A stretch of 64,000 bases of DNA. It comes from Niabella yanshanensis (GTDB taxonomy: Bacteria > Bacteroidota > Bacteroidia > Chitinophagales > Chitinophagaceae). Below, piece by piece: positions 1-33,847 of the stretch. Where the stretch lies: assembly GCF_034424215.1 (NCBI RefSeq), contig NZ_CP139960.1:1488001-1552000 (forward strand). Direction: 5' to 3'. The translations under genes were made by a program, and so were the position numbers. The notes beneath the pieces were generated by a model. It was not told the DNA's origin. It did not search any database and was given only the letters and a program-made list of their open reading frames with translations. Position 1 is the stretch's first letter, and each line of letters begins with the position of its first letter.

Positions 1-1442
1 AACGTCTTTACGGCCTGCGTGTCCTTTTGCTCATTTCTGGCAACCATATAAGCTACCAATTTTTTCTGAGCAGCATTATCGCCCTGCGCTATTACTACGC
101 AATTAGCAATTTCAGCATATTGCATCAGCGCTGTCTCAATTTCACCCAATTCGACCCTAAACCCCCTGATTTTGATCTGGTCGTCAATCCTTCCTAAAAA
201 TTCTATATTCCCATCATCCAGCAGCCGGGCAAGATCGCCGGTCTTATAAATACGACCAATACCTGTATCTCCTTTATGTTCAATGAATTTTTCGCGTGTC
301 AGGTCTGGCCGGTTAACATATCCTTCTGCCAATGCAATGCCCCCAATATACAGCTCTCCTTGTACGCCGGGCTTTACCTCATTCAACTCCTTATCAAGAA
401 TATAAATATTAACAAGTTTTATCGGCCTGCCAATGCCGGGCAAATCAGGCCATTCATTAGCGTCGCCCTCCAGCGCCAGGCTTGTTACAACATGAGCTTC
501 TGTGGGTCCATATTGGTTAAAAAGTTTGACACCGTTGATTTCGGAGAAAAATGCCCGCACCTGCGGCGTTATTTTTAATTGTTCGCCTGCGGTCATCACT
601 TCCTTCAAAGAGCGCGGGTAAGTTTTAGACTGAAAAGCCGATTCACATAACATCTGCAGGGCAACAAAGGGCAGGAACAACCGGTTAATCTGGTGTGTTT
701 CCAAAAAAGAAAGTAAAGCTGCAGGATCGAGCCTCAGATCGTCGTCGATCAGAAACAAAGTGCCGCCGACAGCAAAAGTTGAAAAAATTTCCTGAAACGA
801 TACATCGAAGGTAAGCGGGGAGAAATTCACCGTCCGTGATAGCGCGCCCATCTCAGAGTTTTCAACCTGCCATTGGATAAGGTTAACAAGTGCCTGCTGC
901 CTCATTAAAACCCCCTTGGGCCTGCCTGTAGAACCCGAAGTAAAGAGTACGTAGGTATACAATGCGTTTTTCTGAACCTGTAATTGCGCCGCTGCAACAT
1001 TGCCAGCATCATCATATAGCTCCGGATCGGGATCTATCAGAAGTTTACCTGGAAATAACTGTTTGTATTTGGAAGCCGATACAACTGCTTTAGGACTGGC
1101 ATCTTCAAGCATAAAAGAAATACGCTCCTGAGGATAAGAAGGGTCCACCGGCATATAAGCTGCCCCTACCTTTAGTATTGCAATAATAGAAATGATTACA
1201 TCAAAACCTTTATCCAGGCAAATGGCTATAATATCATTAGCTACGATATTTTCAGACGCCAGGTGTTGGGCCAGAATTGTTGCCCTTTCATTTAACTGGG
1301 CGTATGTAAGCTGTTGATCTCTGTAAAACAGGGCTACAGCGTCAGGTGCTATAACTACCTGATTGTGAAAAATTTCGATTAGCGAAGTCTCCAAGCTCCA
1401 TCCGGCTCCAGCTTTACCAGAGGAATTAATTCGTTCATTCAT
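1..1442 (-). CDS. NRPS, N-terminal adenylation domain (3' end cut by window start)
   Basis: About 480 residues are visible and the frame stays open to the window edge. The protein begins directly with an adenylation domain and has no condensation domain in front. Core motifs are clear: A3 LFTSGSTGRPKGV, A5 NQYGPTEAHV, A7 YKTGDLARLLDDG and A8 IKIRGFRVELGEIE. Reading the binding-pocket positions by alignment to GrsA gives D-V-Q-F-M-A-Q-V-V. This resembles known proline codes (DVQ-L/F-I-A-H-V-V) with His replaced by Gln, so proline or a related imino acid is a reasonable but unproven substrate. The ATG at 1442 follows an A-rich leader containing twelve consecutive A on the coding strand. The gene lies 448 bp after the thioesterase-containing NRPS gene in the same direction, so it may be a separate transcript. 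Its remaining domains lie outside the window. Confidence 0.93.
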   Translation of the reverse strand, partial: MNERINSSGKAGAGWSLETSLIEIFHNQVVIAPDAVALFYRDQQLTYAQLNERATILAQHLASENIVANDIIAICLDKGFDVIISIIAILKVGAAYMPVDPSYPQERISFMLEDASPKAVVSASKYKQLFPGKLLIDPDPELYDDAGNVAAAQLQVQKNALYTYVLFTSGSTGRPKGVLMRQQALVNLIQWQVENSEMGALSRTVNFSPLTFDVSFQEIFSTFAVGGTLFLIDDDLRLDPAALLSFLETHQINRLFLPFVALQMLCESAFQSKTYPRSLKEVMTAGEQLKITPQVRAFFSEINGVKLFNQYGPTEAHVVTSLALEGDANEWPDLPGIGRPIKLVNIYILDKELNEVKPGVQGELYIGGIALAEGYVNRPDLTREKFIEHKGDTGIGRIYKTGDLARLLDDGNIEFLGRIDDQIKIRGFRVELGEIETALMQYAEIANCVVIAQGDNAAQKKLVAYMVARNEQKDTQAVKT

Positions 1443-1890
1443 AGCCAAGTTTACTGCTTTTTTTTTTTTACAGCCAAAATCGGTTTTAACGCAAGCCTCA
1501 ATATGAAAAGTCACCCTCAAGTATAGTTGTATAAACTATTGAAAACCAAGTAATAAAAAATTACTTAAAAACACTTAAACAGTGTGTATACTTAATACAG
1601 TTACCATTGGTTTACGAGAAGACTATTATTCTTAGCATTTTGGATGTTTCCTATCTTCAAAGGTATTAATTTATGGTTACATTACGAACAACAAATGACG
1701 GAGCCCTAAATTTCCACCCTCACTATTTGAGGTGATGAAGCAACTGCAAGGGCCGGCAACCCGGAGAAATAAACACATCTATATTTGTACAAAATCCCAG
1801 CGCGCTCATTCCGGCAGGATAATGGCAGCCCATATTATACTATTGCCCTATACCATAAACATGTCGATACAACCAAGCGAAAAATACTGA
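1443..1890. other. Intergenic region between two NRPS genes
   Basis: This 448-bp gap holds no convincing gene. It probably carries the promoter and a roughly 200-nt leader of the NRPS gene that starts at 1442. The only other features noted are a T12 run on the plus strand at 1458-1469 and a GGTGATGAAGC...GGCAACC stretch around 1731-1760 that faintly recalls a SAM-I riboswitch core but points away from any gene. Confidence 0.6.
1658..1688 (-). promoter_or_regulatory. Putative Bacteroidota promoter for the NRPS gene at 1442
   Basis: On the minus strand, TTCG (1688-1685) is followed after 19 bp by TACCTTTG (1665-1658). The second matches the -7 consensus TAnnTTTG exactly; the -33 box has one mismatch to TTTG. 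Transcription would start near 1651, giving a leader of about 200 nt. Confidence 0.35.
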
Positions 1891-4800
1891 CTACAAAGGG
1901 TTCATATTTGAAAGTGTTTTTTCTATTTCTTCTATAAGTTTCTTATTGTGGGGAGGCAGCAGGAACGTTTTATGATCTCCGTCTATTTCGTGCACTGTTA
2001 CCCCGCCAATCGCATATCTTTTCCAGCCCAGGTATTTAAAATCATCAATAAAATAAATTCTTTCTTTTACACGGAACAGGTGCACCTTTATAGCTGATGA
2101 CGGAACCATCTTATAGGTTTTGTAAGCCCTGTCATAAGCCTCCACAACTTCGCCACCATAGTCATAAATGAGCTCTTCTTCATTTTTATTGAACTGCTTT
2201 GTCAAAAGTGCCCATTGATAGCGGATGACTTTTGCCGGATCCCTGAATAAATTGCTTCCAATGAATATGCCCTTTTTTATCTGGCGTTTTATTTTGAACA
2301 GCATACGGTCAACAACGCCGTCCGGCAAGTCGCGATTGCTGACATTGGTATCCAATATACCGATCATTTTTATCTTTTTACCGGCGGCCAGCAATTGCCG
2401 GGCCATCTCATAAACTACCACGCCACTATATGAATATCCTATCAATATATAGGGACCATCCGGGTTTTGGCGCAGTATTTCATCAAGATACCGCGATGCG
2501 ATGCTTTCTATATGATCCAGATGACGGAGATCGCCGTCAAGACCCAGCGCCTGTATACCATATAAGGGTTGATTATTGCTCAAAAACGGCTTCAGATTCT
2601 TGTATAAAAGGATATTAAGGGCACCTCCATGTATAAGGTAAATAGGTGGCTTTGTGCCCGACTTTTTGATCTCTACGAGTATCTTATATTCAAACAGGGA
2701 TTTATCTTTCAACAGGTTTGCAAAACTGGCAATGGTAGGATACTGGAACAATGAAGCGATAGGCAGTTTAATATTCATTTCTGAATTGATACGGTTCATC
2801 ACTTTTATAGCTACCATTGAGTGCCCACCCAGCTCAAAAAAATCGTCATTAATACCCACCTTTTCTACACCCAACAGCTCGCTCCACACCTGTACCAATT
2901 TCTTTTCTACCTGACTTTCAGGAGCCTGGTATTCGTGCTGTCTCGAAGAAGGTTCATGGGGTTCAGGAAAAGCATTCCGATCTATTTTACCATTCGCTGT
3001 CAGAGGGAACCGTTCCATCGTTACATAAAATCCGGGCACCATATACCCCGGTAAGGACTTTCCCAAAATAGATTGCCATCCTTCCCGGTCAGGTAAAATC
3101 TGTTCGTTTTCCGGAATGACATAAGCTACCAGGTATTGACCGATCTTTTCGCTATCTTTTGCCAGAACTACTGCCGCTCTTACTTCTTTGATCTCTAAAA
3201 TCCGGCTTTCAATTTCGCCCAGCTCAATTCTGAATCCCCTTATCTTCACCTGAAGGTCCCGCCGGCCCAGGTATTCTATGTTCCCGTCTGGCAACCACCG
3301 GGCCAGATCGCCCGATCGATACATCCGTTCATTTTTTCTGAATGGGTTTATCATGAATCGCTCCTCTGTCAGCTCGGGACGGTTCAGATAACCCCTTGCT
3401 ACTCCTTCCCCTGTAACAAATAACTCACCGGTTACACCTACGGGTACTGGTTGAAAGTGATCGTCGAGGATCAAGCACTGCAAGGTAGGAATAGGCTTTC
3501 CTATATTACTAATGTTGGAATGAATTTCCTTTGCTGTAATTTCCTTGTAAGTGACATGTACGGTAGTTTCGGTTATGCCATACATGTTAATCAATTTACA
3601 CCAGGTATAAACATCCGACCATTTTTTTAGCATAGAGGGATATAAAGCCTCTCCTCCGAATATAACGTAGCGGATTGTTTTTAAAGCTTCCTTTTCTAAT
3701 GCGGTTTCCTGCAAAACGTTGAAAAACGAAGGTGTCTGGTTTAAAACTGTAAGCCGCTCTTTCTTAATCAGATTATAGAATAATGCGGCGTCTCTTGTAT
3801 AATCTGCCGGAACCATTACCAGTTTGCCCCCGAATAATAAAGCCCCGAACATTTCCCAAACCGAAAAGTCAAAATTGAACGAGTGAAACATGCACCATAC
3901 ATCTGTTTCTTTAAAATCGAACAGGGGCGTATCGTTAAAAAACAAACGAACCACATTCCGATGTTCGATTAGCACCCCTTTGGGATTTCCTGTACTTCCC
4001 GAAGTATAAATCACATAGAGGATATTATCGGGCTTAATACTTACCCCGGGGCGTACTGAAGGCAGACCAGTCAATATACCAGTTGGTTCGTCTGCATAAA
4101 TGGTTTGAACACTATCAAAACCCTCTACCAAATGTTGCAGGTTGACGGTACTGACCAGAATTTTCGCGCCGCAATCTTTCAAAATATATGCAATCCGGTC
4201 TCTGGGATAATCGGGTGCTATTGGCACATAAGCGGCGCCACATTTAATGATTCCGATAATAGCAACAATCATATCGATATGCCGCTCTATACATAAACCC
4301 ACCAAATCTTCTTTTTTAGCGCCCCTGCTTATAAGATAATGTGCCAGACGATTGCTTCTTTCATCCAGTTCCTGATAAGTCACGGTTTTGTTCCCCGAAA
4401 CTACAGCAATATTGGCCGGTCTTTCCCTTACCCGATCAGTTAAGATATCTACTATTGTTCTTGCTGAAAATTCTCCGTAAGCATACTTCTCCTGTTCACG
4501 TTCTGTAGCCAAAACCTGCTTAGGCTCCAGCTTCAGCTCTTCAATTTTCTGTTCCGGATCTGCAACCACCTGTTCAAGAAGGTAAGTAAATTTCTGCATT
4601 AGTCCCTTAATTGTGTCGAGGGAATAGAGCTGTTTATTATAGGACCACTGAAAATCATATCCCCGCTTATTTTCCGTAATATTTAAGAATATTTCAAAGG
4701 TTTCAAAATTACGCGGGTTGTAAACTATTTCATGCGCTGCTTCCTGGAACCGTACATTTCTATCCATTCCGATGTCGATGTTAAAACAAAGCGGCATTAA

Positions 4801-5892
4801 CGGAATGCGTGAAGGATCTCGTCTGACATTCAGTTTTTCCAGCAATGAGCCAAAAGTAAACTGCTGATTTTCGAGATCTTCCAGAATTTTTGATTTCCTT
4901 GTCTTAAGATACTCAGCAAATGTATACCCGTCTTGGGGCTGGCTTCGTAAAGGAAGCGTATGCACGCAATGTCCTATAAGTTTATACATTTCCGCAAAAG
5001 GTTGTCCAGCCGCAGCCAGCCCGATAACAATATCATTATTACCCGTGTATTTGTACAGTAATATTTCAAATATCGTCATCATAGTGTTGACCCAACTGCC
5101 TCCGTACTTCGCACCTGTTTTTTTAGCAAGGCTTGCCACATCATCAGGCAGTGTATAATCGTATCTGTCGGCGTTGTAAGTTCTTTGCTTCGGTCGCGGG
5201 AAGTCGGGCTGTATTTCAAAAGCGGGAATATTGTTTCGATACGCCGTCAACCAGTAGTTTTGAATGAGCTCATACGCTTTTGTATATGTAAATGCTGAAG
5301 TCTTTTGCACATAATCACTATATAGCAGCGGCCGAAGGGGCAACTCGCTTTTATTCAGCAAGGCATTGTAGATTCCTGAAATTTCTTCCAGCAGGGTGCC
5401 GAATGACCACCCGTCACACACTACATGATGCGCGGTAATAATTAAAATATAACGGTTCTCACTCTTTTTGAATAAAGCGAAGCGGATCAAAGGTCCATTA
5501 AACAAATCGAAAATGGCTGAAGCATCCGCAGCAACAAAATCACTTATGAGCTCATCAGCCCTTTCCGGATCTTCAGTACTTAAATCGTTATAGGAAAACA
5601 GCAGCTGCTGACTGAAGTAAATAAGCATCTGGGTTCCCTCAGCATTAAATGAGGACCTCAGGGCTTCGTTCCTGGCCACCAGTTCCTGAGCAGCCTTTTC
5701 AAGCACATCTGCTTTCACTGCTCCGGTCAGTACGATTGATACAGATTCATTGTAAGCCAGGTTCGCGCTGCTTCCACCTATGATACAGGAGGCTAATATT
5801 TCCCTTTGCGCTTCAGTAGTGGAAATGGCTTTTTCAATAGGGTTTCCCCCAAACGGGTTAAATCCTGTATTTTCTGTAATTTCTGAATTCAT
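1891..5892 (-). CDS. NRPS: condensation - adenylation (Thr) - thiolation - thioesterase
   Basis: This is a terminal elongation and release module of 1333 residues. The order is C (about 25-450; HHVVCDGWS, His155/His156...Asp160), A (about 475-980; A3 YTSGSTGNPKGV near 630, A5 NMYGITETTV near 770), T (LGGHS, Ser1025 for the phosphopantetheine arm) and TE (about 1085-1330). The pocket code reads D-F-W-N-I-G-M-V-H, the established threonine signature. The TE has GYSYSG with Ser1154 as nucleophile where GYSxGG is usual, plus likely Asp1181 and His1307. I chose the ATG at 5892; a TTG lies two codons upstream. It follows the PKS/NRPS gene by 18 bp and is almost certainly co-transcribed. The C domain should accept the beta-amino acyl chain made by that protein, join it to threonine, and the TE then hydrolyses or lactonises the product. 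Confidence 0.96.
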   Translation of the reverse strand: MNSEITENTGFNPFGGNPIEKAISTTEAQREILASCIIGGSSANLAYNESVSIVLTGAVKADVLEKAAQELVARNEALRSSFNAEGTQMLIYFSQQLLFSYNDLSTEDPERADELISDFVAADASAIFDLFNGPLIRFALFKKSENRYILIITAHHVVCDGWSFGTLLEEISGIYNALLNKSELPLRPLLYSDYVQKTSAFTYTKAYELIQNYWLTAYRNNIPAFEIQPDFPRPKQRTYNADRYDYTLPDDVASLAKKTGAKYGGSWVNTMMTIFEILLYKYTGNNDIVIGLAAAGQPFAEMYKLIGHCVHTLPLRSQPQDGYTFAEYLKTRKSKILEDLENQQFTFGSLLEKLNVRRDPSRIPLMPLCFNIDIGMDRNVRFQEAAHEIVYNPRNFETFEIFLNITENKRGYDFQWSYNKQLYSLDTIKGLMQKFTYLLEQVVADPEQKIEELKLEPKQVLATEREQEKYAYGEFSARTIVDILTDRVRERPANIAVVSGNKTVTYQELDERSNRLAHYLISRGAKKEDLVGLCIERHIDMIVAIIGIIKCGAAYVPIAPDYPRDRIAYILKDCGAKILVSTVNLQHLVEGFDSVQTIYADEPTGILTGLPSVRPGVSIKPDNILYVIYTSGSTGNPKGVLIEHRNVVRLFFNDTPLFDFKETDVWCMFHSFNFDFSVWEMFGALLFGGKLVMVPADYTRDAALFYNLIKKERLTVLNQTPSFFNVLQETALEKEALKTIRYVIFGGEALYPSMLKKWSDVYTWCKLINMYGITETTVHVTYKEITAKEIHSNISNIGKPIPTLQCLILDDHFQPVPVGVTGELFVTGEGVARGYLNRPELTEERFMINPFRKNERMYRSGDLARWLPDGNIEYLGRRDLQVKIRGFRIELGEIESRILEIKEVRAAVVLAKDSEKIGQYLVAYVIPENEQILPDREGWQSILGKSLPGYMVPGFYVTMERFPLTANGKIDRNAFPEPHEPSSRQHEYQAPESQVEKKLVQVWSELLGVEKVGINDDFFELGGHSMVAIKVMNRINSEMNIKLPIASLFQYPTIASFANLLKDKSLFEYKILVEIKKSGTKPPIYLIHGGALNILLYKNLKPFLSNNQPLYGIQALGLDGDLRHLDHIESIASRYLDEILRQNPDGPYILIGYSYSGVVVYEMARQLLAAGKKIKMIGILDTNVSNRDLPDGVVDRMLFKIKRQIKKGIFIGSNLFRDPAKVIRYQWALLTKQFNKNEEELIYDYGGEVVEAYDRAYKTYKMVPSSAIKVHLFRVKERIYFIDDFKYLGWKRYAIGGVTVHEIDGDHKTFLLPPHNKKLIEEIEKTLSNMNPL

Positions 5893-5910
5893 CTTCAATC
5901 AATCACTCTT

Positions 5911-8900
5911 TTATAGTTGAATGTAACGTCCCGGATAATCCACATCTTCAATAAACCACACAGCATTACCCTGTTGATCTCTGCCCAAACGCGCCCCCGG
6001 TTCAGGCGGTTCGGCACTACTCAGTATTTTTGCCATGGCCTTATACTGGGGTATTAAGTCTGCTTTACAGAGTTCTGCTATACTCTCTTCAAAGGCCAAA
6101 CATATGGCATCTATATCGGCATCTGTGTGCGCCGTGGTCAAAAAACAGGGAAAGAGGTCCCAAATATGAATATTACGCAATCGCATCAATGCGAATAACA
6201 ATTCATAGTAAGGATACTCTTCCTTGAACTTAATTTTCCAAAGAGAAGAGAAATGTACTACCTCTATAGGTACCGCATATTTTTCAGCAATCTGGTTTAA
6301 CCGAAGCGCCAACCGGGTGGTTTTTTCGTTCAGTCCGTTTTGCAGGCCAGGCCCCTGTTCCTTTAAGTAATTCAATGAGGCTTTAGTAGTAGCGAGCGCC
6401 AACGGATGCCTTACAAATGTTCCCGCAAAATAAGTCACTCCTCTTTGCGGTAAGGAGTCGTCACCATATTCCCAGTACCCGCCGTCCAGTGCATCCATGT
6501 ATTCCCGGCTTCCGGCAATGATCCCTATTGATATACCTGCACCCGCTACTTTACCATAGGTGGCGAGATCGGCTCTTATTCCGTATAACGCCTGAATCCC
6601 TCCCGGGTGACTTCTGAACCCGGTAATAACTTCGTCGAAAACAAGCGCGATATCCCGCTCGGCTGTGATCTTTCTAAGCTCCCGCAAAAACTCGACCGGC
6701 TGAAATTCAGGTCGCCGGCTTTGAACCGGCTCGACCAGGACTGCTGCAATATCCGAGGCGCGCTCCGCTATGATCTTTAAGGATGCTTCTGTGCCATAAT
6801 CCAGAATCAGCATGTTCTGCACATTACTGTTTAAAATACCTGAGGCAGCCGGATAGGTTCTCAGCTTTTTGCTTCCCCTTACCAGCACTTCATCCATAAT
6901 ACCATGGTACGATCCGGCAAAAGCGACTACAAGGTCTCTTCCTGTAACAGTGCGAACGATCCGCATGGCACCCAGTACTGCCTCAGACCCGGTATTACAA
7001 AAAGCAGCCCTTTCCATACCGGTCATTTCGCAAACCAGATCAGCCACTTCGCCTGCCAGAAAATGTTGAGGGCCTATCTCGTACCCGTCTTCAACCTGTT
7101 TTATGATGGCTTCTTTAATTATATCTGCCTGATAACCCAGAAAATTAGAACCAAAACCATTCAATGCATCTATATATTTATTTCCGTCAATATCCCACAA
7201 ATAGCAGCCCTTCGATTTCTGGGTAACAATAGAATACACCATCTCTTTTGTATAAGGCTTAAATCCTGATACCACCCTGGGATCTGCCATTCTTCCACGA
7301 TATTGTTGTGTATATTTTTTGCTTTCGGCTGTTTTCTTATTATATACTGTTATAAAATCAGCTATATATTTCCTCTGAGCATCGGAAACTTCAGTATTTT
7401 TTTTTTCTATACGGGCGGTAGCACCAAAAGGTTTCTTTAGTTCTATCCTTTCCTCAGCCGTTAAATCGTCCGGAACCAGGTTGCTTTCCGGTGCAGCAGT
7501 ACCTTTTTGTATAGAAAGATCGCGATTCAGTATAACTGTATCATTAGACAGAACGGGAGCAGTTCCCTGCATAATGGCTACCTGCCGGGATAATATCTGC
7601 AACTGCTGGGTAATAAGACTTAGCATATCCCCTCCGGCTACAACCCCTCCATTGAGGGGCAACATTGCGCCTGTGAGTGCAGCAGATGCAGGCAAGGAAG
7701 GGGCATACTTTCCCGGAGGCAATTGTTCATCAAAGAACTGCGCAAGCTTTTCCAAACTGTCACAATTTTCACTTAACTGGCGGAAAGTAACAGGAATCGA
7801 AAATTCCTTTTTTATAACCGTTGCAAGCTGGGTCAATAACAAAGAATCGAGTCCCAACTCCGCAAAATTGCTTCGGATACCGGCATCCGGTACTGAGATA
7901 CCGGAAGCAGATTCGATTATATCTCTTAATTTATTCAGTAAAATATCTTTTCGCTTCATTTGATTGATTGGAATACTGATTTCGGGTGCGGTTGCGTTAA
8001 ATAAAGGCTGATTAAACACCGTTGCCTGCTTGTCGGATAGAACCGGGTCTACCCAAAGTTTTTTTCTATTGTATGCATAAGTGGGAAGACTGTGCAATAA
8101 AACAGCATTACCGGACCGGTACAACTTTTGATAATCAATATCTGCACCTAATTGCCATAATCTACCGAGCGCTGTTTTCGCCGCTGCTCTTTCATCTTTT
8201 GTAGTACTGGACAGTATGGCAACCGCGCTGTCCCCGGCTCCATTTTGTTTAGCAAAAATAGTTGATGATGACCCTGGACCGGTTTCTAAAAACAGCGGAT
8301 CCAGGTCTTTCTGTATATTCTTTAAGGCTGCACCAAATTGCACGGTTTCTCTTGCATGACGGGCCCAATAAGCCGCATCGGTTGCCTCTCCGTCTTTAAG
8401 CCATTGAGCCGTAACTGTAGACAGAATGGGAATCCGCGGCACTTTCAAAACAGCCTGGTCTATTACCTGTTTCAATCGTCCTACCGCAGCATCTATCATG
8501 GCTGAATGAAAGGCATGACTGGTTCGTAAAAGTTTATTGGCTATTCCCAACTGAGTGAGTTGCGCAGCGAACGACTCAATAGCCATCGTTTCCCCGGAAA
8601 CAACACATAGCTCTGCCGCATTTTGTGCGGCTATAGACAGTGCCGGGGGCAGCAAGTTTTTAACCGTATTTTCTGCTGCCCTTACCGACAACATGCTTCC
8701 TTCAGGCAGTTCGCTAATCAGGCGGCCCCGCTCGGCAACTATTTTTAATACATCTTCCAGGGAAAAAACGCCCGCGAGATGTGCTCCCACAAATTCACCT
8801 ACGCTATGCCCCGCGAATGCAGCCGGAACAATGCCCCAACTCATGTACAACCGGGATAGTGCATAGGATGTTACGAATAGTGCCGGTTGGGCGTAGCGTG

Positions 8901-11900
8901 TGTTGGAAAGTTTTTCCAAAGCGCTGCTATCGGCAGCTTCTGTAAATATTATGGATCTGATGTCTTCGCCCATATGCTGCTGCAATATCCCGGCACACTC
9001 ATCTATAGCGTTGCGGTACACCGGTTCTGCATCATATAGTTCCTTGCCCATGTTGGGATATTGATTACCCTGGCCCGGGAAAAGGAAGACTACGTTATTC
9101 TTTTTCTCTTTCACAGTGTAAGCTGCGCTCATTAAAGATTCGGTAGAACTTAATTGAGCAGCCAATTCCTCCATGTCTTTTGCCACAACAAAATTGCGGA
9201 TAGCAAAATCCTGACGCGTAGCGTGTAAAGTATAGGCCACGTCACGTATTCTGCAGGTTGCGTTCGTTTGCGAATAATCCAGCAACCGGGTAGTATAGGT
9301 TTTTAAGCTATCTATATGATGAGCTGACCAGCAAACCAGTTCAGGCCCGGTATCATTTTCAGTTGCTCTTTGTAATGCATCCAGATCGTTTGCATATTCC
9401 TCCAGAACTACATGAGCATTCGTTCCTCCTACGCCAAATGAGCTCACTCCCGCAAGCCGCTTTCCGGTGGTCAATTCCCATGGTCTTAGTTTTGTATTAA
9501 CTATAAAAGGGCTTGAATCAAAATCTATATGAGGATTAGGCTTCTTAAAATTGATAGACGGTGGCAATTGCCGGTTGTACAACGATAATACTGTTTTAAT
9601 AAAGCCTGCTACACCAGCGGCATGAGTCAAATGCCCCAGGTTGCTTTTTAGGGAACCGATGGCACAGAACTGCTTTTGACTTTGCCTGCCAAATGCCAGC
9701 TTTAACCCGTCAATCTCAATAGGGTCTCCCAACGGAGTCGCAGTTCCATGTGTCTCAATGTAAGAAATATCAGCTGGTGCTACATGAGCATCTGAAAAAG
9801 CCATTGCTATAGCAGAAGCCTGCCCTCCTGCACTCGGAGCGGTGAAACTCCCCTTCATTCCCCCATCATTATTGACGCCCACTCCCCGTATTACTGCATA
9901 AATAGTGTCGCGATCTCTTTTCGCATCATCCAGGCGTTTTAGCAGTACTGCACCAACACCATCACTGAACACAGTCCCTTTCGCATCAGCATCAAAAGGT
10001 CTGCAATGCCCATCGTTGCTTAACATGGCACCCTCCTGGTATAAATGACCGCTATTAACAGGCACCGTAATTGCTGCACCCCCGGCAATAGCGGTGTCAC
10101 ACTGCCCCGCTCTCAGGCTTTCAACTGCCTGTATAATCGCTACCAAAGATGTTGAGCAAGCTGTATTTACATTTACTGAGGGTCCGGAAAGATTAAGCTG
10201 ATAACTCACACGGCTACTGATGTAATCTTTATCCGACACCGATATTACCGGCACGCTGCCCTGCCGCTCAATTTTATCGCGATGCCCAACAACATTGTTG
10301 TTAAAATATGTGTTGGTACTACACCCGGCAAATACGCCGGTGACTGCGTCCTTCTTTCCTGGTAAATAACCAGTCTTCTCTAAAAGATTTCGGGATGTCT
10401 CCAGGAACACCCGTTGTTGTGGATCCATCAATTCTGCCAACCGGGGACTGATCCCAAAAAAATCTGCGTCGAAAAAATCCACGTCATCTATTACGCCCCT
10501 AGCCTTTACATAAGCAGGATCACTTTTTACGGTATCAGGTATACTTTTGTCCAATTCATCATATGAAAAAAAACGGATGGTCTCTTTTCCATTTTTGAGT
10601 ACATCCCAAAATTGTTCTATATTTCCAGCACCGGGGAAATTGCACTCCATGCCTATTACTGCAATTTCGGGGTTCGCCACCGTCTTTTTAAAGTACTCCA
10701 CATGTGGAATTGATTGCGCTCCCCTCAGAAACTGTTGCAGTCCGGCAATAGTAGGACTATGATAGATACGGGTAATGGGCAGGTCAAATCCGTGTTCCTT
10801 TTTTAGAACCGACACCAATTTTTGCGCCAGCAGGGAATTACCCCCCAGTTCAAAAAAACTATCTTCTACACCGATTTTTTCGATCCCTAACAATGCCCGC
10901 CAGGAAGCTGCGAGCTGGTGCTCCATATCTGTAGCCGGCGCCACGTATATTCCCCTTTGCAGATATCTGTCATCAGGCTCGGGAAGCGCCTTTTTATTTA
11001 CTTTACCATTACTCGTAAGAGGAATCGATTCCAATTCAACAAAAAAATCAGGAATCATGTAAGCGGGTAAGATATCTGTCAGCCTTTCGCGAATAATGGC
11101 TTTACTGAGTTCTTTCTGGTTACTGGAATAATAAGCAACCAGGTATTTGCCTGAGCTTCTCTCTTTTGCAATAACGACGGCCTGCGTTACGCCGGCTATC
11201 TCCTGCATCCGGCTTTCTATTTCACCCATCTCTATGCGATATCCTCTTATTTTTACCTGGTTATCGCTCCGCCCTATATATTCCAGGTTGCCATCGGGCA
11301 ACATCCTGGCCAGGTCACCGGAACGATAAAGACGCTGACCGCTTCTGTAAGGATGGGTGATAAATTTTTCAGCCGTCAGTTCAGGTCGGTTCAGATAGCC
11401 TCTTGCCACCCCTTCGCCTCCCACACATAATTCTCCAACCAGGTTCTCAGGAACCAATTGCAACTGTTCATCTAAAATAATAACGGATAAAGTTGGTATC
11501 GGAGCGCCGATATTACTGACGTTAGAAGCAATATCTTTTTCTGTTATTTTTTTGTACGTAACGTGTACCGTTGTTTCGGTAATTCCGTACATATTAATCA
11601 ACTGGCACCAGGTGTAAACCTCGCTCCATCTTTTTAAAAGATACGGATATAAAGCTTCTCCCCCAAAAATCACATACCGTAGCGCTTTGATTGGTTCTCT
11701 TTCCAAAACAACCTCTTGTAAGGCATTAAAGGCCGAAGGAGTTTGATTTAAAACAGTTACGCCCTCATCCTGCATTAATTCATAAAAACGGCCGGCGTCT
11801 TTGGCAATATCTTTACTAACAATTACCAGTTTACCTCCGAATAACAATGCACCATACATTTCCCATACTGAGAAATCGAAATTGAATGAATGAAACATAG

Positions 11901-12525
11901 TCCAAACATCCCTGTCTGTAAATTGAAAAAGAGGTTGATCGTTGAAAAACAAACGGACTACATTTCTATGTTCTATCAATACGCCCTTGGGATTTCCGCT
12001 GCTACCCGATGTATAGATCACATAAAGCAAATTACCGGGGATGACGGGTAAAGAGGGATTGCTACTTACCGATTGATTCAGCTCATCTTCGATCAGGTCC
12101 AAATAAACAGTAGTGGTACTATCAAAACCTTCTACCAGATAGCTCAGCCCGGAACTACTGATTATTAACGAAGATTGGGTATCTTTTAACATGTATCCGA
12201 TTCGCTCTCGTGGTGTAGCTGGATCTATCGGTACATAGGCTGCACCAGCTTTCATGATGGCCAGCATCCCTACAATCATCTCTATACTACGCTCCACACA
12301 AATACCAACCAGATCTTCTGTTTTTACATTCTTCGACAGTAAATAACCAGCCAGTTGATTCACCCTGACATTAAGGGCCTCATAAGTCATCTCCACACCG
12401 TTACAAGTAATGGCCGTATGGAATGGTGTTTTCAGAACCTGTTCTTCGAACAGGTCTATTATAGTTTTATCGGGAAAACCTGCTTCACTATGGTCATCGG
12501 CTTTTAATTCATAGTTTTGACTCAT
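5911..12525 (-). CDS. Hybrid NRPS/PKS: A(Thr)-T-KS-AT-ACP-aminotransferase
   Basis: A 2204-residue megasynthase. Domains in order: adenylation (about 20-515; A3 YTSGSSGNPKGV, pocket code D-F-W-N-I-G-M-V-H = threonine), thiolation (LGGNS, Ser564), ketosynthase (about 618-1045; Cys790 in NTACSTS, His926 in ETHGTAT, His965 in NLGHLTHAA), acyltransferase (about 1145-1440; Ser1241 in GHSVGE, HAFH at 1337-1340, the malonyl-type motif), ACP (LGLDS, Ser1561) and a class III PLP aminotransferase (about 1720-2150; DEV at 1964, probable Schiff-base Lys1992). There is no ketoreductase or dehydratase. By analogy with the aminotransferase modules of mycosubtilin and microcystin synthases, the beta-keto product is aminated on the carrier. 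It starts with an A domain, so it is a loading module. Predicted product: 3,4-diamino-5-hydroxyhexanoyl-ACP. It precedes the C-A-T-TE gene by 18 bp. Confidence 0.96.
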   Translation of the reverse strand: MSQNYELKADDHSEAGFPDKTIIDLFEEQVLKTPFHTAITCNGVEMTYEALNVRVNQLAGYLLSKNVKTEDLVGICVERSIEMIVGMLAIMKAGAAYVPIDPATPRERIGYMLKDTQSSLIISSSGLSYLVEGFDSTTTVYLDLIEDELNQSVSSNPSLPVIPGNLLYVIYTSGSSGNPKGVLIEHRNVVRLFFNDQPLFQFTDRDVWTMFHSFNFDFSVWEMYGALLFGGKLVIVSKDIAKDAGRFYELMQDEGVTVLNQTPSAFNALQEVVLEREPIKALRYVIFGGEALYPYLLKRWSEVYTWCQLINMYGITETTVHVTYKKITEKDIASNVSNIGAPIPTLSVIILDEQLQLVPENLVGELCVGGEGVARGYLNRPELTAEKFITHPYRSGQRLYRSGDLARMLPDGNLEYIGRSDNQVKIRGYRIEMGEIESRMQEIAGVTQAVVIAKERSSGKYLVAYYSSNQKELSKAIIRERLTDILPAYMIPDFFVELESIPLTSNGKVNKKALPEPDDRYLQRGIYVAPATDMEHQLAASWRALLGIEKIGVEDSFFELGGNSLLAQKLVSVLKKEHGFDLPITRIYHSPTIAGLQQFLRGAQSIPHVEYFKKTVANPEIAVIGMECNFPGAGNIEQFWDVLKNGKETIRFFSYDELDKSIPDTVKSDPAYVKARGVIDDVDFFDADFFGISPRLAELMDPQQRVFLETSRNLLEKTGYLPGKKDAVTGVFAGCSTNTYFNNNVVGHRDKIERQGSVPVISVSDKDYISSRVSYQLNLSGPSVNVNTACSTSLVAIIQAVESLRAGQCDTAIAGGAAITVPVNSGHLYQEGAMLSNDGHCRPFDADAKGTVFSDGVGAVLLKRLDDAKRDRDTIYAVIRGVGVNNDGGMKGSFTAPSAGGQASAIAMAFSDAHVAPADISYIETHGTATPLGDPIEIDGLKLAFGRQSQKQFCAIGSLKSNLGHLTHAAGVAGFIKTVLSLYNRQLPPSINFKKPNPHIDFDSSPFIVNTKLRPWELTTGKRLAGVSSFGVGGTNAHVVLEEYANDLDALQRATENDTGPELVCWSAHHIDSLKTYTTRLLDYSQTNATCRIRDVAYTLHATRQDFAIRNFVVAKDMEELAAQLSSTESLMSAAYTVKEKKNNVVFLFPGQGNQYPNMGKELYDAEPVYRNAIDECAGILQQHMGEDIRSIIFTEAADSSALEKLSNTRYAQPALFVTSYALSRLYMSWGIVPAAFAGHSVGEFVGAHLAGVFSLEDVLKIVAERGRLISELPEGSMLSVRAAENTVKNLLPPALSIAAQNAAELCVVSGETMAIESFAAQLTQLGIANKLLRTSHAFHSAMIDAAVGRLKQVIDQAVLKVPRIPILSTVTAQWLKDGEATDAAYWARHARETVQFGAALKNIQKDLDPLFLETGPGSSSTIFAKQNGAGDSAVAILSSTTKDERAAAKTALGRLWQLGADIDYQKLYRSGNAVLLHSLPTYAYNRKKLWVDPVLSDKQATVFNQPLFNATAPEISIPINQMKRKDILLNKLRDIIESASGISVPDAGIRSNFAELGLDSLLLTQLATVIKKEFSIPVTFRQLSENCDSLEKLAQFFDEQLPPGKYAPSLPASAALTGAMLPLNGGVVAGGDMLSLITQQLQILSRQVAIMQGTAPVLSNDTVILNRDLSIQKGTAAPESNLVPDDLTAEERIELKKPFGATARIEKKNTEVSDAQRKYIADFITVYNKKTAESKKYTQQYRGRMADPRVVSGFKPYTKEMVYSIVTQKSKGCYLWDIDGNKYIDALNGFGSNFLGYQADIIKEAIIKQVEDGYEIGPQHFLAGEVADLVCEMTGMERAAFCNTGSEAVLGAMRIVRTVTGRDLVVAFAGSYHGIMDEVLVRGSKKLRTYPAASGILNSNVQNMLILDYGTEASLKIIAERASDIAAVLVEPVQSRRPEFQPVEFLRELRKITAERDIALVFDEVITGFRSHPGGIQALYGIRADLATYGKVAGAGISIGIIAGSREYMDALDGGYWEYGDDSLPQRGVTYFAGTFVRHPLALATTKASLNYLKEQGPGLQNGLNEKTTRLALRLNQIAEKYAVPIEVVHFSSLWKIKFKEEYPYYELLFALMRLRNIHIWDLFPCFLTTAHTDADIDAICLAFEESIAELCKADLIPQYKAMAKILSSAEPPEPGARLGRDQQGNAVWFIEDVDYPGRYIQL

Positions 12526-12725
12526 TGCTACCCCTCGAATTTAATAATTTAGATCCGGCGCTACTTATCCGAACAATATATGTATTAGAATCTCCTGTAT
12601 AGTCTAGCCTCCTTGTATATCCGGGCCTTTAAAGACTTATGCGCTATCACCCACAATACTTTACACGCCCAGGTAAAACGATAATTCACTACAAACAACT
12701 TGAAGGCTTTATTATAGGATAGATG

Positions 12726-12875
12726 TTATTTCAAAGATATAAATTTTACCGGAATATCTAAATCAGAAGTCCTGGGAATCTGAAAACCCAAACCTTTATA
12801 TAGCTTCTTGATTATCGGGGGTCCGCTGTTCTTTTCACCGTCATACCATTTGATCTTATCAACATCCCCCCGGTG
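12726..12875 (-). pseudogene. Short gene remnant of unknown family (49 codons)
   Basis: A stop-to-stop open frame of 49 codons without any start codon reads like real protein, with segments such as KIKWYDGEKNSGPP and IIKKLYKGLGFQIP before a TAA at 12726-12728. Composition and phrasing look coding-like, but the upstream part is missing, so it could be the C-terminal scar of a deleted gene. I do not recognise the family. Its 3' end overlaps the proposed -7 box of the NRPS operon. A chance open frame is possible. Confidence 0.25.
12732..12762 (-). promoter_or_regulatory. Putative promoter of the NRPS/PKS operon
   Basis: Minus-strand TTTA (12762-12759), 19 bp, then TATCTTTG (12739-12732), a perfect match to the Bacteroidota -7 consensus TAnnTTTG with one mismatch in the -33 box. 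Transcription would begin near 12725, leaving a leader of about 200 nt before the ATG at 12525. Confidence 0.5.
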
Positions 12876-13023
12876 CTACTGTTCGTATGTAATGTTATTA
12901 ATACAGATGCGCCATGTTTTTAGTGAAAGCGCAGCGTACAGGTGTAGAAAAGTAAGCCTGCGGGCAAATCATCCACGCGGCATCACGAAAAATGCGCCGG
13001 CGCGTCAGGAAATCAACCTGAGA

Positions 13024-14187
13024 TTAAGCAGATGCCGATTTACCCAAAATTTTTTCAAGGCTGGCCCGCAATATAGGTATGGATACCTGAATATCCTGAC
13101 AAAGCGCCCTGAACAAATCGCCGTTGATCTCCTCGCTCGTCTCATCCTGATAGGCCGCATAGTGCATATGATTAATACTGGAGAGATAAAGAAAGTAATC
13201 TGGGTACCAGCTTTTTGAAAAGAGCTCGTATAAAAAAGTTTCGGGCCTGCACCATATAATATTTGCAAAAGAAGCCCCATGCGGGCCTATTATAAAGGAG
13301 GCATTCCTGTAAATTTCAATTTGTTCAGCAACACTTCTTTCCTTATCCTCAATAATAATAAAATTAAATTCCCTAAGTAATTCAATCAGCTCGATTTCAT
13401 TTTCAATTCTCCTTCTGCCTTTTCTGCTTATATAAATACGGTTGTCAGCTGAAGGAGTTAGCGGTGAAATATTCAACCGTTGCTCTATATTTTTTTTCAG
13501 AGACTTAATTTCGTTGACGCTGGGCTTCCAGGAACCGGCGTTTCCAAAGATCACCTTATTGGCTGAAATTTTATAAGCACGGGTATCAATGTAATTCTCT
13601 GCTCTGAAACCAAGCAATTCGAGATATTCTTTTTCGTAATGTCCTCCAAAGGAGTGGTAAGCTATAGTAATATCCCGGATGTCCTGGTTGCCCAGGGCGT
13701 CCTTAATCCTGCTGAGTTTTGCTGCTACCATCAGCACAAAATCATAGTAGCCGGTTAAAACAGATGGACTTGTCAGATCCTGGTGATGGCTTAACAGCGG
13801 AATGAGCTTCTTCACATATTTTAACGGGCGTTTATCTTTCTTCCAAAACCGGTGCTCAAACCCCCGATGATCCCAGTCGGTGCAAAGTACCTTATTATCG
13901 ATGACAACCGATCCATGTTTTGAAATAAAGCCATTTTGAAAGTCACATTCCCAAACGTATACTGCTTCCGACCTAAACGTATAGGCCTCAAAGAAAACTT
14001 TCTGCAGATTATTTTGATATGAGATTTCGGGTAGTGCTACCGCAGACCCGGGAACCGTCCTTATACAAGAAGGTTTAAGGCAACGTATCGTCTCTTCTAA
14101 GGTAAGCAGCTGGTATTTCTTAAATTTAAAATAGAAATAAATAACCTTTTTCCTTATTGCAACTATAATATTTCTAAAAGTGCCCAT
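13024..14187 (-). CDS. Glycosyltransferase family 61-like protein
   Basis: A 387-residue protein with the GT61 (formerly DUF563) signature in its C-terminal half: RIYISRKGRRRIENE near 250-265 and IIGPHGASFANIIW near 310-325, which form the nucleotide-sugar binding part of this family. The N-terminus has basic and aromatic residues but no clear signal peptide. The ATG at 14187 is preferred; a TTG two codons upstream is possible. It has its own promoter candidate (14279-14309) and reads toward the NRPS/PKS operon, 498 bp before it. Its link to that pathway, for instance glycosylating the product, is only inferred from position; a role in surface polysaccharide assembly is equally possible. Confidence 0.8.
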   Translation of the reverse strand: MGTFRNIIVAIRKKVIYFYFKFKKYQLLTLEETIRCLKPSCIRTVPGSAVALPEISYQNNLQKVFFEAYTFRSEAVYVWECDFQNGFISKHGSVVIDNKVLCTDWDHRGFEHRFWKKDKRPLKYVKKLIPLLSHHQDLTSPSVLTGYYDFVLMVAAKLSRIKDALGNQDIRDITIAYHSFGGHYEKEYLELLGFRAENYIDTRAYKISANKVIFGNAGSWKPSVNEIKSLKKNIEQRLNISPLTPSADNRIYISRKGRRRIENEIELIELLREFNFIIIEDKERSVAEQIEIYRNASFIIGPHGASFANIIWCRPETFLYELFSKSWYPDYFLYLSSINHMHYAAYQDETSEEINGDLFRALCQDIQVSIPILRASLEKILGKSASA

Positions 14188-14278
14188 ACACAACTCATTA
14201 AAAACATAGATTCGTGATTACTCATCTGATTGTTGATGCAGATAACTGTACCGGTACCCGGCTTCACTCACCCCCTAA

Positions 14279-19271: not shown

Positions 19272-22200
19272 TTAGTGCTGGCCACATCCGCAGCCATGCC
19301 CGGTAGTTGCATCATGCCAGGGGAATGCCGTAGCATTTTTATAAAGTTCCCAGGGAAATTTAGTTCGCTTCTTAGGACTGTTACCGATCTCATTCATTTC
19401 TTCCGCATCATATAGCCGCCCGTTAGCCATGGTCCATTTTATCGTTTCAGTATTGTAAATATTTTCCAACGGGTTTTTATCCAGAACGATCAGGTCTGCC
19501 AGCTTTCCTGGTTCGATAGATCCAAGATTGACATCCAGACCTAAACTTTTGGCCGGATTAATCGTGGCTGTCTTTAAGGCTTCATGCGGCGTCATTCCGC
19601 CTTGTGTCATCATCCAGATCTCCCAATGTGCACCTATGCCCTGTATCTGTCCATGAGCGCCCATATTTACCAAGACACCTGCGTCGCTTAAGCGCTTCAG
19701 GTTTTTAGATGAAAGCATATGACCGTTCACGTATTCCTCCTCGGGCAGCATCGTACGGTGGCGGCTGCGCGCGTCAATTACTTCACGCGGAGTGAACCGC
19801 ATGAGCCGCTCTTTCTCCCATACATTGGTATGCTGGTACCAGTAATATTCGCCGCTTACCGAACCATAGTTTACGATCAGTGTAGGTGTATAGGCTGTTT
19901 GAGATCTTTTCCACAATTGTATCACGTCATCCTGCAGCACTGCTACAGGCATATTATGTTCGATGGTTGTATGTCCGTCCAGTATCATACTCGTATTATG
20001 AAAAAAGAAGGAGCCGCCTTCCGGTACTACTTCCATATGCAACTCCCGGGCTGCCTGTATAATTTGCTGGCGTTGTTCCCGGCGCGGCTGGTTGTAACTT
20101 TTTACCGAAAAAGCGCCAAATGCCTTTGTCCGTCTTAGTGCGCTTCGGGCATCATCCAGTGAATTGATCACGGCTTTAAAATCACCATCTGCTCCATACA
20201 AAATAGTACCGGTGGAATAAACACGGGGACCTATAAGGGCTCCGGATTTAACCAGCTCCCCGTTGGCAAATACAAATTCACTATTGGCTGAAGGATCATG
20301 AATAGTAGTAACACCATAAGCCAAAGCGGCATAATAAGGCCAGTGCTTTTGCGGGGTGATACCGGTTCGGAAATGTCCAGCATGCGCATGTGCATCAATA
20401 AAACCCGGAACAATGGTTTTACCTGCCGCATCAATTGTTTTTGCGGAAGAAGGAATATTCACCTCTCCGGTTTTACCTACGGCTTTAATTTTGTTGTCCT
20501 CAACTAAAATAGTTCCGTTCTCAATTATTTCATCACCTTTCATGGTAATGATACGCGCGTTAGTGAAAGCAATAGATCCATCAGGCTTGTCCGTTGCTAT
20601 TTCCAGACCCACTTCTCTGCCCTGCTCCGGCATTTTAAATAAGGAGTCGGGTTTGTGGGCTATAAATTCAAAACGTTCATCCAGGTTGATCGTATAATAC
20701 TGACTGCCTAAAGTGTAATGCAGTTTCTTGGCATCACTGCTCCAGTGCAGGTTATAGCCTGCATCTTTCGATACCAGTTTCACCGGGAAATCGGAGGAGC
20801 TGCCGCTAATTTCAAGGGTCTTTCCTGTTTTGGGAAAAGCGGCCACATAAGCTTTATGCAAATCTGTAAAAGCAATCCATTGCTCATCGGGAGATACCCT
20901 GAAATTATTACCATACGTACTTTTCAGCAATACCTTTTCATCCTCACCATTTAATTTACAAGTCGACAAATTGTTACTGCCTGTTTCAAAATAGATCCGG
21001 TCGCCGGCAGCATTAAAATAAGGTGTACCTCCCCGCTGAATTACAAACTGCTCACCCGTTCCATCGGCTGACATCAGGTAAATACCCGGCTGGCTGGTAT
21101 GCGCGGGTCCCAGGGCATCGCTACCGCCCTCTTTGATAAAGATGATCTTTTTACTGTCACTGGAAAAGGATGGCGTACGGAAAATACCTTTTGTTTTAGT
21201 AAGTTTTACCGGTCTGGCAACGCCCTCCATATTCATCTTATAGATGGCTCCTGAATTTTCATCATTCCAGGTAGTATACAGCAATTGTTTTCCATCGGCT
21301 GAAAAAGAAGGTTCAAATTCAAAATCGGTACCACTGGTCAAACGTTCAGGTTTTCCATCGGGCAATCTTTTCTTCCATAAATAACCAACGGCATTAAATA
21401 CCAGCCATTTTTCGTCCGGAGCCGTAACAGCCTGCCTGATCACATTTGCCTTGAAATTGATAACGTCAAGATCCTGTTTAAAGCGTACCGCGTCATAGAT
21501 TCGCTGACTTACATGGCAGGTAAAAGGAACGGGCGTTGCCTTGTTCACTGCATCCGCCTCGACCTTGATGATATTTCCGTTGGCCCAGATGTATATATAA
21601 CGATCATCAGGAGACCAGGCATAGCCCGTATAAATACCGAATACGGTCCAGGCTTCCTGCTGATCTTTACTTAGCTGATCATACACCGGCCACTCTTCTC
21701 CTGTTTCCAGGTTACGGAGGTACAAAACAGATTTAGTACGTACACGTTTTACAAATGAAAGATACTTTCCGTTGTGTGATAGTTGTGGTCGTACGGCTCC
21801 TCCTCCGCCACCGGTTACATTCTCTACTCTTCCCTTATCCCGGTCAAACCGGCGGATCATGAATATTTGATTATTGGGATCTTTATTATATTGAAAGTAT
21901 CCACCGGGATACATATCCTCGCTAAAATATACATAACGCCCGTCTGGCGATACGCAGGGCTCATTGACGTCTTGCTGATCATTTTTACGGGTAGTTAACT
22001 GTAACCCGTTACCGCCGGACAAATGATACATCCACATTTCGCCCGCTCCCAACGACCGGCCGGAAGTAAAGTGTTTACGGGCTACCAGGTACTGTCCATC
22101 GGGTGTCCATACTGCGTTATTCAGCAGCCTGAAGCTTTCTTTGGTAACAGCCCGTGCGTTTTTACCATCCCTGTCCATTACCCAGATATTATCGCCACCG

Positions 22201-22520
22201 GCTGCATCAGAAGTAAAAGATATCTTCTTTCCATCAGGACTAAAACGGGGCTGCACCTCAAAAGCATGGCCTCCCCGCAATAATTTTGCGTCACCTCCGG
22301 TTGCGGGTATGCTATAGATATCACCCAGCAGATCAAAAATAATTTCTTTACCATCAGGGGAAACGTCGAGGTTCATCCAGGTACCTTCCTTAACAGTAAA
22401 AGATACTTCTTTGTAAGGTCCTTCGGGATTAGAAACCTCCCATTTTTTATTATCGGTTTTTGTTTGCGCCCAAACACTAAGGGGCAATGCCGAAAGCAAC
22501 AGCATTGAGATCAACTTCAT
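19272..22520 (-). CDS. Exported beta-propeller / amidohydrolase fusion protein
   Basis: A 1082-residue secreted protein with a signal peptide ending near VWAQ. Residues about 45-640 contain TolB/PD40-type propeller repeats (VSPDGKEIIF, FSPDGKKISF, VSPDGRYVYF, FSADGKQLLY). Residues about 650-1050 form a metal-dependent amidohydrolase with the metal-binding motif GFIDAHAHAGHF near 710 and the closing GSIEPGKLADLIVLDKNP typical of the imidazolonepropionase/dipeptidase-like branch. Such fusions are common in Bacteroidota and are thought to be peptidases or cyclic amide hydrolases; the substrate is unknown. The C-terminus ends GHGCGCGQH, a possible extra metal-binding tail. A good promoter lies just upstream. 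Confidence 0.9.
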   Translation of the reverse strand: MKLISMLLLSALPLSVWAQTKTDNKKWEVSNPEGPYKEVSFTVKEGTWMNLDVSPDGKEIIFDLLGDIYSIPATGGDAKLLRGGHAFEVQPRFSPDGKKISFTSDAAGGDNIWVMDRDGKNARAVTKESFRLLNNAVWTPDGQYLVARKHFTSGRSLGAGEMWMYHLSGGNGLQLTTRKNDQQDVNEPCVSPDGRYVYFSEDMYPGGYFQYNKDPNNQIFMIRRFDRDKGRVENVTGGGGGAVRPQLSHNGKYLSFVKRVRTKSVLYLRNLETGEEWPVYDQLSKDQQEAWTVFGIYTGYAWSPDDRYIYIWANGNIIKVEADAVNKATPVPFTCHVSQRIYDAVRFKQDLDVINFKANVIRQAVTAPDEKWLVFNAVGYLWKKRLPDGKPERLTSGTDFEFEPSFSADGKQLLYTTWNDENSGAIYKMNMEGVARPVKLTKTKGIFRTPSFSSDSKKIIFIKEGGSDALGPAHTSQPGIYLMSADGTGEQFVIQRGGTPYFNAAGDRIYFETGSNNLSTCKLNGEDEKVLLKSTYGNNFRVSPDEQWIAFTDLHKAYVAAFPKTGKTLEISGSSSDFPVKLVSKDAGYNLHWSSDAKKLHYTLGSQYYTINLDERFEFIAHKPDSLFKMPEQGREVGLEIATDKPDGSIAFTNARIITMKGDEIIENGTILVEDNKIKAVGKTGEVNIPSSAKTIDAAGKTIVPGFIDAHAHAGHFRTGITPQKHWPYYAALAYGVTTIHDPSANSEFVFANGELVKSGALIGPRVYSTGTILYGADGDFKAVINSLDDARSALRRTKAFGAFSVKSYNQPRREQRQQIIQAARELHMEVVPEGGSFFFHNTSMILDGHTTIEHNMPVAVLQDDVIQLWKRSQTAYTPTLIVNYGSVSGEYYWYQHTNVWEKERLMRFTPREVIDARSRHRTMLPEEEYVNGHMLSSKNLKRLSDAGVLVNMGAHGQIQGIGAHWEIWMMTQGGMTPHEALKTATINPAKSLGLDVNLGSIEPGKLADLIVLDKNPLENIYNTETIKWTMANGRLYDAEEMNEIGNSPKKRTKFPWELYKNATAFPWHDATTGHGCGCGQH

Positions 22521-33803: not shown

Positions 33804-33847
33804 ATAAAGCAATTAAAGCAGTTTACTAATTAAATTTCCACTTAGAA

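Follow-up and report, generated by a model that had tools for sequence, protein, structure and literature searches.

What can a bacterium make from two threonines, one malonate and an embedded aminotransferase? Two adjacent genes, here called P1 and P2, raise this question in a 64,000-nucleotide stretch of the Niabella yanshanensis genome (positions 1488001-1552000 of the single contig, genome size 5.54 Mb). We call this whole stretch the window and count positions from its first letter. P1-P2 is probably a copy of a conserved two-gene cassette of the Bacteroidota, which would make 3,4-diamino-5-hydroxyhexanoyl-threonine. The predicted product contains a vicinal diamine.

P1 and P2 are built from adenylation (A), carrier (T), ketosynthase (KS), acyltransferase (AT), acyl carrier protein (ACP), condensation (C) and thioesterase (TE) domains and an aminotransferase, arranged as follows.

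5911..12525, minus strand: P1, megasynthase A(Thr)-T-KS-AT-ACP-aminotransferase, 2204 aa (translation, Pfam, domain map)
10966..12471, minus strand: P1 A domain, code DFWNIGMVHK, without a C domain in front (domain map, code reading)
10726..10950, minus strand: P1 T domain, Ser564 (domain map, residue alignment)
9391..10683, minus strand: P1 KS, C790/H926/H965 (Pfam, domain map, alignment)
8206..9120, minus strand: P1 AT, S1241 and HAFH, malonyl-type (Pfam, domain map, alignment)
7711..7965, minus strand: P1 ACP, Ser1561 (domain map, alignment)
6016..7305, minus strand: P1 aminotransferase domain, class III, GSA-aminomutase-like (Pfam, domain map, alignment)
6889-6891, minus strand: codon of P1 signature residue Glu1879
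6550-6552, minus strand: codon of P1 aminotransferase K1992
5914..6030, minus strand: P1 C-terminal tail, common to P3 (see below) and the P1-type genes of relatives, putatively docking to the next C domain
1891..5898, minus strand: P2, C-A(Thr)-T-TE, 1335 aa, first ATG at 5892 (translation, Pfam, domain map)
4519..5826, minus strand: P2 C domain, HHxxxDG (domain map, alignment)
2950..4464, minus strand: P2 A domain, code DFWNIGMVHK, 58% identical to the P1 A domain
2689..2928, minus strand: P2 T domain, Ser1027 (domain map, alignment)
1894..2673, minus strand: P2 TE, S1156/D1183/H1309, motif GYSYS (Pfam, domain map, alignment)

A first-pass annotation of the window had noticed two assembly-line genes here, and both are indeed present, with uninterrupted reading frames. 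Pfam models follow one another as AMP-binding, PP-binding, ketoacyl-synt, Acyl_transf_1, PP-binding and Aminotran_3 in P1, and as Condensation, AMP-binding, PP-binding and Thioesterase in P2. Together with the domain map they reproduce the domain order read by the annotation. It had also reported that P1 lacks a ketoreductase; at E <= 0.001 no Pfam model for a ketoreductase, dehydratase, enoylreductase or methyltransferase matched P1 or P2. The malonyl loading that it assigned to the AT agrees with the HAFH motif, which marks malonyl-specific ATs. Its interpretation of the two genes, in contrast, is only partly supported.

The part that stands is the chain logic: threonine loading, malonate extension, transamination of the β-ketone, addition of a second threonine and release by the TE. 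The A domain of P1 would activate L-threonine, which would be held on the T domain of the same protein. The KS would condense this threonine with the malonate supplied by the AT to give 4-amino-5-hydroxy-3-oxohexanoyl-ACP. The aminotransferase, which depends on pyridoxal phosphate (PLP), would then convert the 3-ketone to an amine, and the resulting 3,4-diamino-5-hydroxyhexanoyl-ACP would carry the vicinal diamine. The P1 tail would dock to P2, whose C domain would join the diamino unit to a second threonine. Finally, the TE would release 3,4-diamino-5-hydroxyhexanoyl-threonine as a free acid or as a ring, either a seven-membered 1,4-diazepane-2,5-dione closed through the 3-amine or a lactone. 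We infer each chemical step, as well as the stereochemistry, the docking and the release form, from the sequence.

Why threonine? Both A domains have the pocket code DFWNIGMVHK, which we take to be a threonine code, as the annotation had done. The P1 A domain matches 313 PLSDB records (E <= 1e-80), the best of them BamC, the bacillomycin D synthetase (NZ_CP083716.1). The A domain of its second module has the identical code and is about 54-55% identical to that of P1; a weak TE match comes after this module, and the first module has the code DVWHFSLIDK. Bacillomycin D ends in Ser-Thr, and the match backs the threonine assignment. The contexts differ, since the threonine A domain of BamC sits inside a lipopeptide line, whereas that of P1 is a loading module before a KS. 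Solved A domains were rejected as a guide to the substrate: linear gramicidin synthase A entries lead the list, and their totals are high because two A domains add up.

Is the pair peculiar to Niabella? The P1 architecture is already described: in Table 2 of a 2013 paper (PMC3870968), A-CP-KS-AT-CP-PLP1 is listed for Pedobacter heparinus. Uniqueness of the P1 architecture is ruled out by this table and by 48 distinct copies in the Bacteroidota. Of 395 genomes drawn evenly from the phylum, 18 have a match to the P1 aminotransferase (E <= 1e-80), and so do 11 of 195 genomes of a family-level sample. In thirteen of the 18, among them this genome, the match exceeds 620 bits and the frame has 2176-2269 aa or, in G150, 3451 aa, with the P1-type and C-A-T-TE parts fused as one protein. 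A contig search for relatives gave 79 loci from the best 80 of 145 places, and from L043 on these are mostly aminotransferase-only matches. We collected 49 P1-type open reading frames (ORFs), 48 of them distinct. A C-A-T-TE gene starts at most 400 bp downstream of the P1-type end in 44 of the 48, this pair included. P1 shares both the domain order and the C-terminal tail of the family. One scan of viral contigs found no viral copy of the line.

Of 50 aligned rows (49 P1-type and P3), all 50 have the KS triad and both carrier serines, and 49 have the AT serine. The aminotransferase lysine occurs in all 49 P1-type rows that have the domain (one row is a duplicate). HHxxxDG is found in 49 of 49 P2-type rows (48 and P4, described below); 47 of these rows have Ser as the TE nucleophile and 2 have Cys.

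The substrate codes, on the other hand, are a variable feature of the family. Read against code tables, the first-domain code is Pro-like (DVQ...) in 31 of 48 copies, the second-domain code is Gly-like in 34, and both hold in 23. The Thr/Thr pair occurs once, in P1-P2, and is not the commonest pair. Other Niabella copies differ again: L018 has DAFLLAVVIK and then an Asn-like code, L032 a Gly-like code and then DAFLLAVVI, and the second code of L042 can be read for DAFL only. Compared with P1-type relatives, P1 is 58-69% identical in the KS and 62-73% in the aminotransferase, and 33-46% in the A domain. In 60-residue windows from residue 139 to 378 of the A domain, P1 and P2 are 62-87% identical, whereas against P1-type relatives (48 A domains, among them one duplicate and G150 twice) the medians are 21-33%. 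Outside this core the two levels come closer to each other. This is what one would see if a threonine A-core had moved between P1 and P2 or had been brought into both. Across the pair family the enzyme core stays the same and the A-domain cores are exchanged.

Some copies of the pair have further peculiarities. The P2-type genes of G080, G249b, G472 and G547 encode 1733-1771 aa, with the A domain as two matches and about 400 extra residues; the extra part may be an N-methyltransferase, in which case sarcosine would result. The P2-type gene of G540, from the same split-A-domain group, is truncated where its stretch ends. Free-standing A(Gly-like)-T-TE proteins lie near the pair, among or beside polysaccharide genes, at L027:21499-24123 and at 31901-34588 of the joined locus G099. 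The N. hibiscisoli and N. defluvii copies (L032 and L042; about 9.9-20.7 kb) are in several reading-frame pieces, through decay or sequencing error.

Does the aminotransferase act on a ketone that already has an amine beside it? Its best solved relative is the domain of MycA, the mycosubtilin synthase (PDB 6kfm, 6kfr, 6kfu), at 365 bits, followed by GSA aminomutases at 168 bits and below. The PF00202 match, the position after the ACP and the catalytic lysine fit a class III aminotransferase embedded in a polyketide synthase (PKS), as in MycA. K1992, D1964, Y1873 and H1874 are all present in the alignment; the annotation had named an inactive lysine as a danger to its reading, and K1992 is intact. 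P1 departs from the MycA type in its starter. MycA is lipid-primed, whereas P1 has an A-T starter and all eight residues of another class.

These eight residues come from a comparison of the family with nine outside domains, in which 46 positions were fixed in the family and differed in at least five outsiders. From the 46 the signature was chosen by eye, as sites at which three amino-acid-primed lines of other phyla share the residue of the family and lipid-primed lines do not: N1789, E1879, N1904, R2039, R2115, F/Y2125, P2126 and T2130. At these sites P1 has N/E/N/R/R/F/P/T and MycA M/G/D/T/N/R/N/S.

To look beyond the family, we sampled the phyla of four loci, one each from cyanobacteria, acidobacteria, rhizobia and clostridia, with 23 of 292, 16 of 297, 20 of 398 and 3 of 348 genomes matched, respectively. 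The 52 stretches tested comprise 7 of 21 rows from the Bacteroidota phylum (the remaining 14 belong to the pair family) and 19 of 32, 9 of 17, 13 of 20 and 4 of 5 rows from the four phyla in the same order. Free-standing or stop-bearing aminotransferase frames, contig ends and loci already included were excluded; six ordinary rows of the acidobacterial set (489-495 bits) and six of the rhizobial set were also left out. Two stretches (L281, L283) have no aminotransferase in the domain map. Before scoring, each line was given a starter class by eye, from its domain order and without a blind rule. Doubtful starters are L019, which begins at a contig end inside the A domain, and L278, which has no T between A and KS; L276, whose A match covers the full length and is weak at 43 bits, was counted as lipid/polyketide-primed.

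With these classes, among loci not used for choosing the signature, 15 of 16 amino-acid-primed lines score 6-8 of 8, and 0 of 17 lipid/polyketide-primed lines do so. The 16 lines without a C domain score 2, 6, 7 (nine) and 8 (five), and the 17 score 0 (thirteen) and 1 (four). Five lines with C-A-T before the KS score 0, 0, 1, 1 and 7. Twelve with an unreadable starter, scored apart, give 0 (eight), 3, 3, 7 and 8. A tree of 68 domains, with the signature columns removed, separates 28 amino-acid-primed rows (nine of them a sample of the pair family) from 22 lipid/polyketide-primed rows (ultrafast bootstrap 91-93). Glu1879 occurs in 28 of the 28, in 0 of the 22 and in 3 of 6 C-A-T-primed rows. 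The aminotransferases of amino-acid-primed lines from several phyla thus form a group separate from lipid-primed ones like that of MycA. Signature and grouping support, without proving, an α-amino-β-keto substrate and with it a vicinal diamine. As proof of α-amine recognition the signature was dropped, since it is confounded with ancestry on the tree, and we keep it as support only.

Lines in other phyla have the same beginning. L245-L249, L263-L265, L272-L274 and L277-L279 place an A-T loading module before KS-AT-ACP-aminotransferase (without the T in L278). If the signature is right, these lines are predicted to be diamine makers as well.

Kinship with GSA aminomutases allows a different outcome. 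The 3-ketone could be aminated and the 4-amine then removed, so that the amine moves from C4 to C3 and no diamine is left. GSA aminomutases, the next best solved relatives after MycA, work via a diamine intermediate. When the P1 domain is aligned with GSA aminomutase, K1992 falls on the lysine of the latter, N1789 lies two residues before Trp67 and E1879 six after Tyr150. F2125 seems to replace Glu406, a placement that comes from extending a weak 17-residue alignment (-1.5 bits). MycA, the closest characterised relative, is a net aminotransferase that obtains its amine from glutamine (PMC3870968). We judge the aminomutase outcome decidedly unlikely and retain the diamine as the predicted product.

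P1-P2 does not stand alone. It is one half of a four-gene locus whose second line also ends in a TE.

1..1520, minus strand: P3, A(DVQFMAQVVK)-T-KS-AT-ACP-tail, 1758 aa, without aminotransferase, cut by the window edge (genome sequence, Pfam, domain map)
Genome 1477030-1489520 (L084:7030-19520), minus strand: P3-P4 line, A(Pro-like)-T-KS-AT-ACP, then C-A(Asn-like)-T-C-A(DAFLLAVVIK)-T-TE

P3 starts at 1520 (TTG) or 1442 (ATG) and leaves the window at its left edge; Pfam finds no PF00202 match in it. P4 lies beyond the window and has 2404 aa in the order C-A(DLTKIGEVGK)-T-C-A(DAFLLAVVIK)-T-TE, its start meeting the end of P3. The P3-P4 line looks like a relative of P1-P2 that has lost its aminotransferase. 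Another form without aminotransferase is found in Aurantibacter (L037).

All four genes could form one system, in which P1 or P3 docks to P2 or P4 and a mixture or a longer product results. The four genes form one same-strand run, the tails of P1 and P3 are alike, P2 and P4 begin alike, and the TE of P4 matches that of P2 with 352 bits (self 578). However, each half has its own TE, and about 370-450 bp separate P2 from P3. Furthermore, the P1-P2 type of pair is directly adjacent in 44 of 48 relatives, and no second PKS gene stands beside the pair in the relatives' stretches (ORFs >600 aa examined). A single four-gene system is thus unlikely, and P1-P2 would act independently of P3-P4.

Alternatively, the line could be inactive or off-load early. 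The α-amine could attack the ACP thioester and form a γ-lactam before P2 is reached, or an altered TE could fail. On chemical grounds a 4-amino thioester may close to a five-membered lactam, and the TE motif GYSYS differs from 47 of 49 rows. Yet the other catalytic residues that were checked are intact, and 44 of 48 relatives retain the C-A-T-TE pairing, which one would expect if selection favours the dipeptide as the product. We regard this outcome as very improbable, more so than the loss of the diamine.

Several observations weigh against a working, independent diamine line. The TE motif of P2 has Ser at its last position in this protein alone (Gly in 47 of 49, a gap in one). No gene for a phosphopantetheinyl transferase (PPTase) stands beside P1-P2, unlike in many relatives; the loci examined contain 34 PPTase-labelled ORFs, usually directly downstream of the pair, and this genome has three PF01648 matches elsewhere. 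L243 is amino-acid-primed and scores 2 of 8, and L244 follows a C-A-T module and scores 7. The signature may reflect ancestry rather than α-amine recognition, because both classes are opposite sides of one tree. Cross-talk with P3-P4 is possible, because that line shares the locus and resembles P1-P2 in its tail and its TE.

How much of this is new? Modules of McyE (microcystin) and NdaF (nodularin) have KS-AT-ACP-aminotransferase followed by C-A-T, as P1-P2 does; they also have a C-methyltransferase and a polyketide-type starter. The McyE-type C-methyltransferase between AT and ACP has no Pfam match in P1. In BioA and GSA aminomutase the same fold aminates an α-amino ketone or aldehyde to a vicinal diamine; these enzymes are free-standing and act on small molecules, whereas the P1 domain would act on carrier-bound thioesters. 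The MycA domain acts on an ACP-bound β-ketothioester (PMC3870968).

Closest in architecture is Pedobacter heparinus C6XWU5, the entry in the 2013 table, from the same phylum, with the domain order of P1 and a class III aminotransferase. The table gives no A substrate for it and lists Nrp-Mal-Gly-Pk as the antiSMASH product, a prediction that has Gly rather than Thr. It fits the common Pro-like/Gly-like form of the pair. Guadinomines are bacterial natural products in which a vicinal diamine is important for activity (PMC6963908); they come from Streptomyces and are likened here by the diamine only, not by assembly line or amine origin. A Bacteroidetes survey counts 306 gene cluster families and groups 12 of them with MIBiG entries; a search of its text gave no occurrence of 'aminotransferase' (PMC9248904). 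The literature searched, open-licence papers only, contained no matching vicinal-diamine product. Hence the architecture is known, and new are the Thr/Thr specificity and, within that literature, the aminotransferase grouping.

If our reading is true, the aminotransferase group would allow vicinal diamines to be predicted from sequence across several phyla. The Bacteroidota cassette would then be a natural fixed scaffold with exchanged amino acids, a lesson on how well A-core swaps are tolerated. With two genes, reconstitution in vitro is practical.

What might the product be for? Polysaccharide genes lie beside the line. Beyond P4, on the same strand, follow a response regulator, a sugar transferase (Bac_transf), an outer-membrane efflux-type protein, a Wzz/tyrosine-kinase-like protein (so labelled by reading the sequence; Pfam gives only a sub-threshold CbiA match), a Wzy_C protein and then glycosyltransferase genes. 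A flippase gene lies further along on the opposite strand. On the other side of the line, one gene is a possible edge of the polysaccharide locus.

13024..14193, minus strand: glycosyltransferase family 61 gene (PF04577), directly upstream of P1 (Pfam)

We built models from the polysaccharide genes of this genome and counted their matches around 48 loci outside the Niabella group; set aside as that group were this locus, L013 (a guess), L018, L024, L032 and L042. The 48 include one duplicate (L034 = G575) and some short contigs and are not phylogenetically independent. Controls were 20 stretches at round-number coordinates in 16 further genomes and this one. The models matched 84 of 621 neighbouring ORFs, versus 3 of 324 in the controls, with the caveats that the Bac_transf model also picked up response regulators and that G099 was under-counted, a third nonribosomal peptide synthetase gene having widened its range. 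Any match was found at 29 of 48 loci versus 3 of 20 controls, and at least two export classes at 8 of 48 versus 0 of 20. No model matched at 19 of the 48. The genes lie downstream in Mucilaginibacter and Niabella and upstream in Spirosoma (L012), and Pedobacter has glycosyltransferases only.

Polysaccharide linkage thus recurs and is not universal. A polysaccharide role is at present hypothetical, because the arrangement differs by lineage and 19 of 48 loci have no match. Still, the recurrent exopolysaccharide neighbourhood raises a testable question, whether a small diamine peptide takes part in biofilm or capsule making. At its widest our proposal would say that an aminotransferase subgroup marked by Glu1879 and the seven other residues defines cross-phylum β,γ-diamino-acid lines, with the Bacteroidota cassette as a form with swapped A cores whose dipeptide is used by, or exported with, exopolysaccharide machinery. 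Taken as a whole, this proposal is unlikely.

Around the genes, promoter and terminator scans of 1300-2000 and 12400-13200 gave nothing clearly above shuffled sequence. The closest named records at the locus are Niabella defluvii (80%) and N. hibiscisoli (76%, best segment).

The rest of the window holds a few further genes. A 1082-aa protein at 19272-22520 (minus strand) joins a TolB-like propeller to an amidohydrolase-like part. At 23160-24005 (minus strand) lies a relative of APH(6)-like aminoglycoside phosphotransferases, with 272.6 bits against a curated cut-off of 460. The region 30762-62184 resembles a polysaccharide utilisation locus (ten ORFs scanned), with a TonB-dependent receptor plug, SusD, DUF4961, GH92, GH31 and GDSL and SASA esterases, and contains a hybrid-type two-component regulator at 58936-62184.

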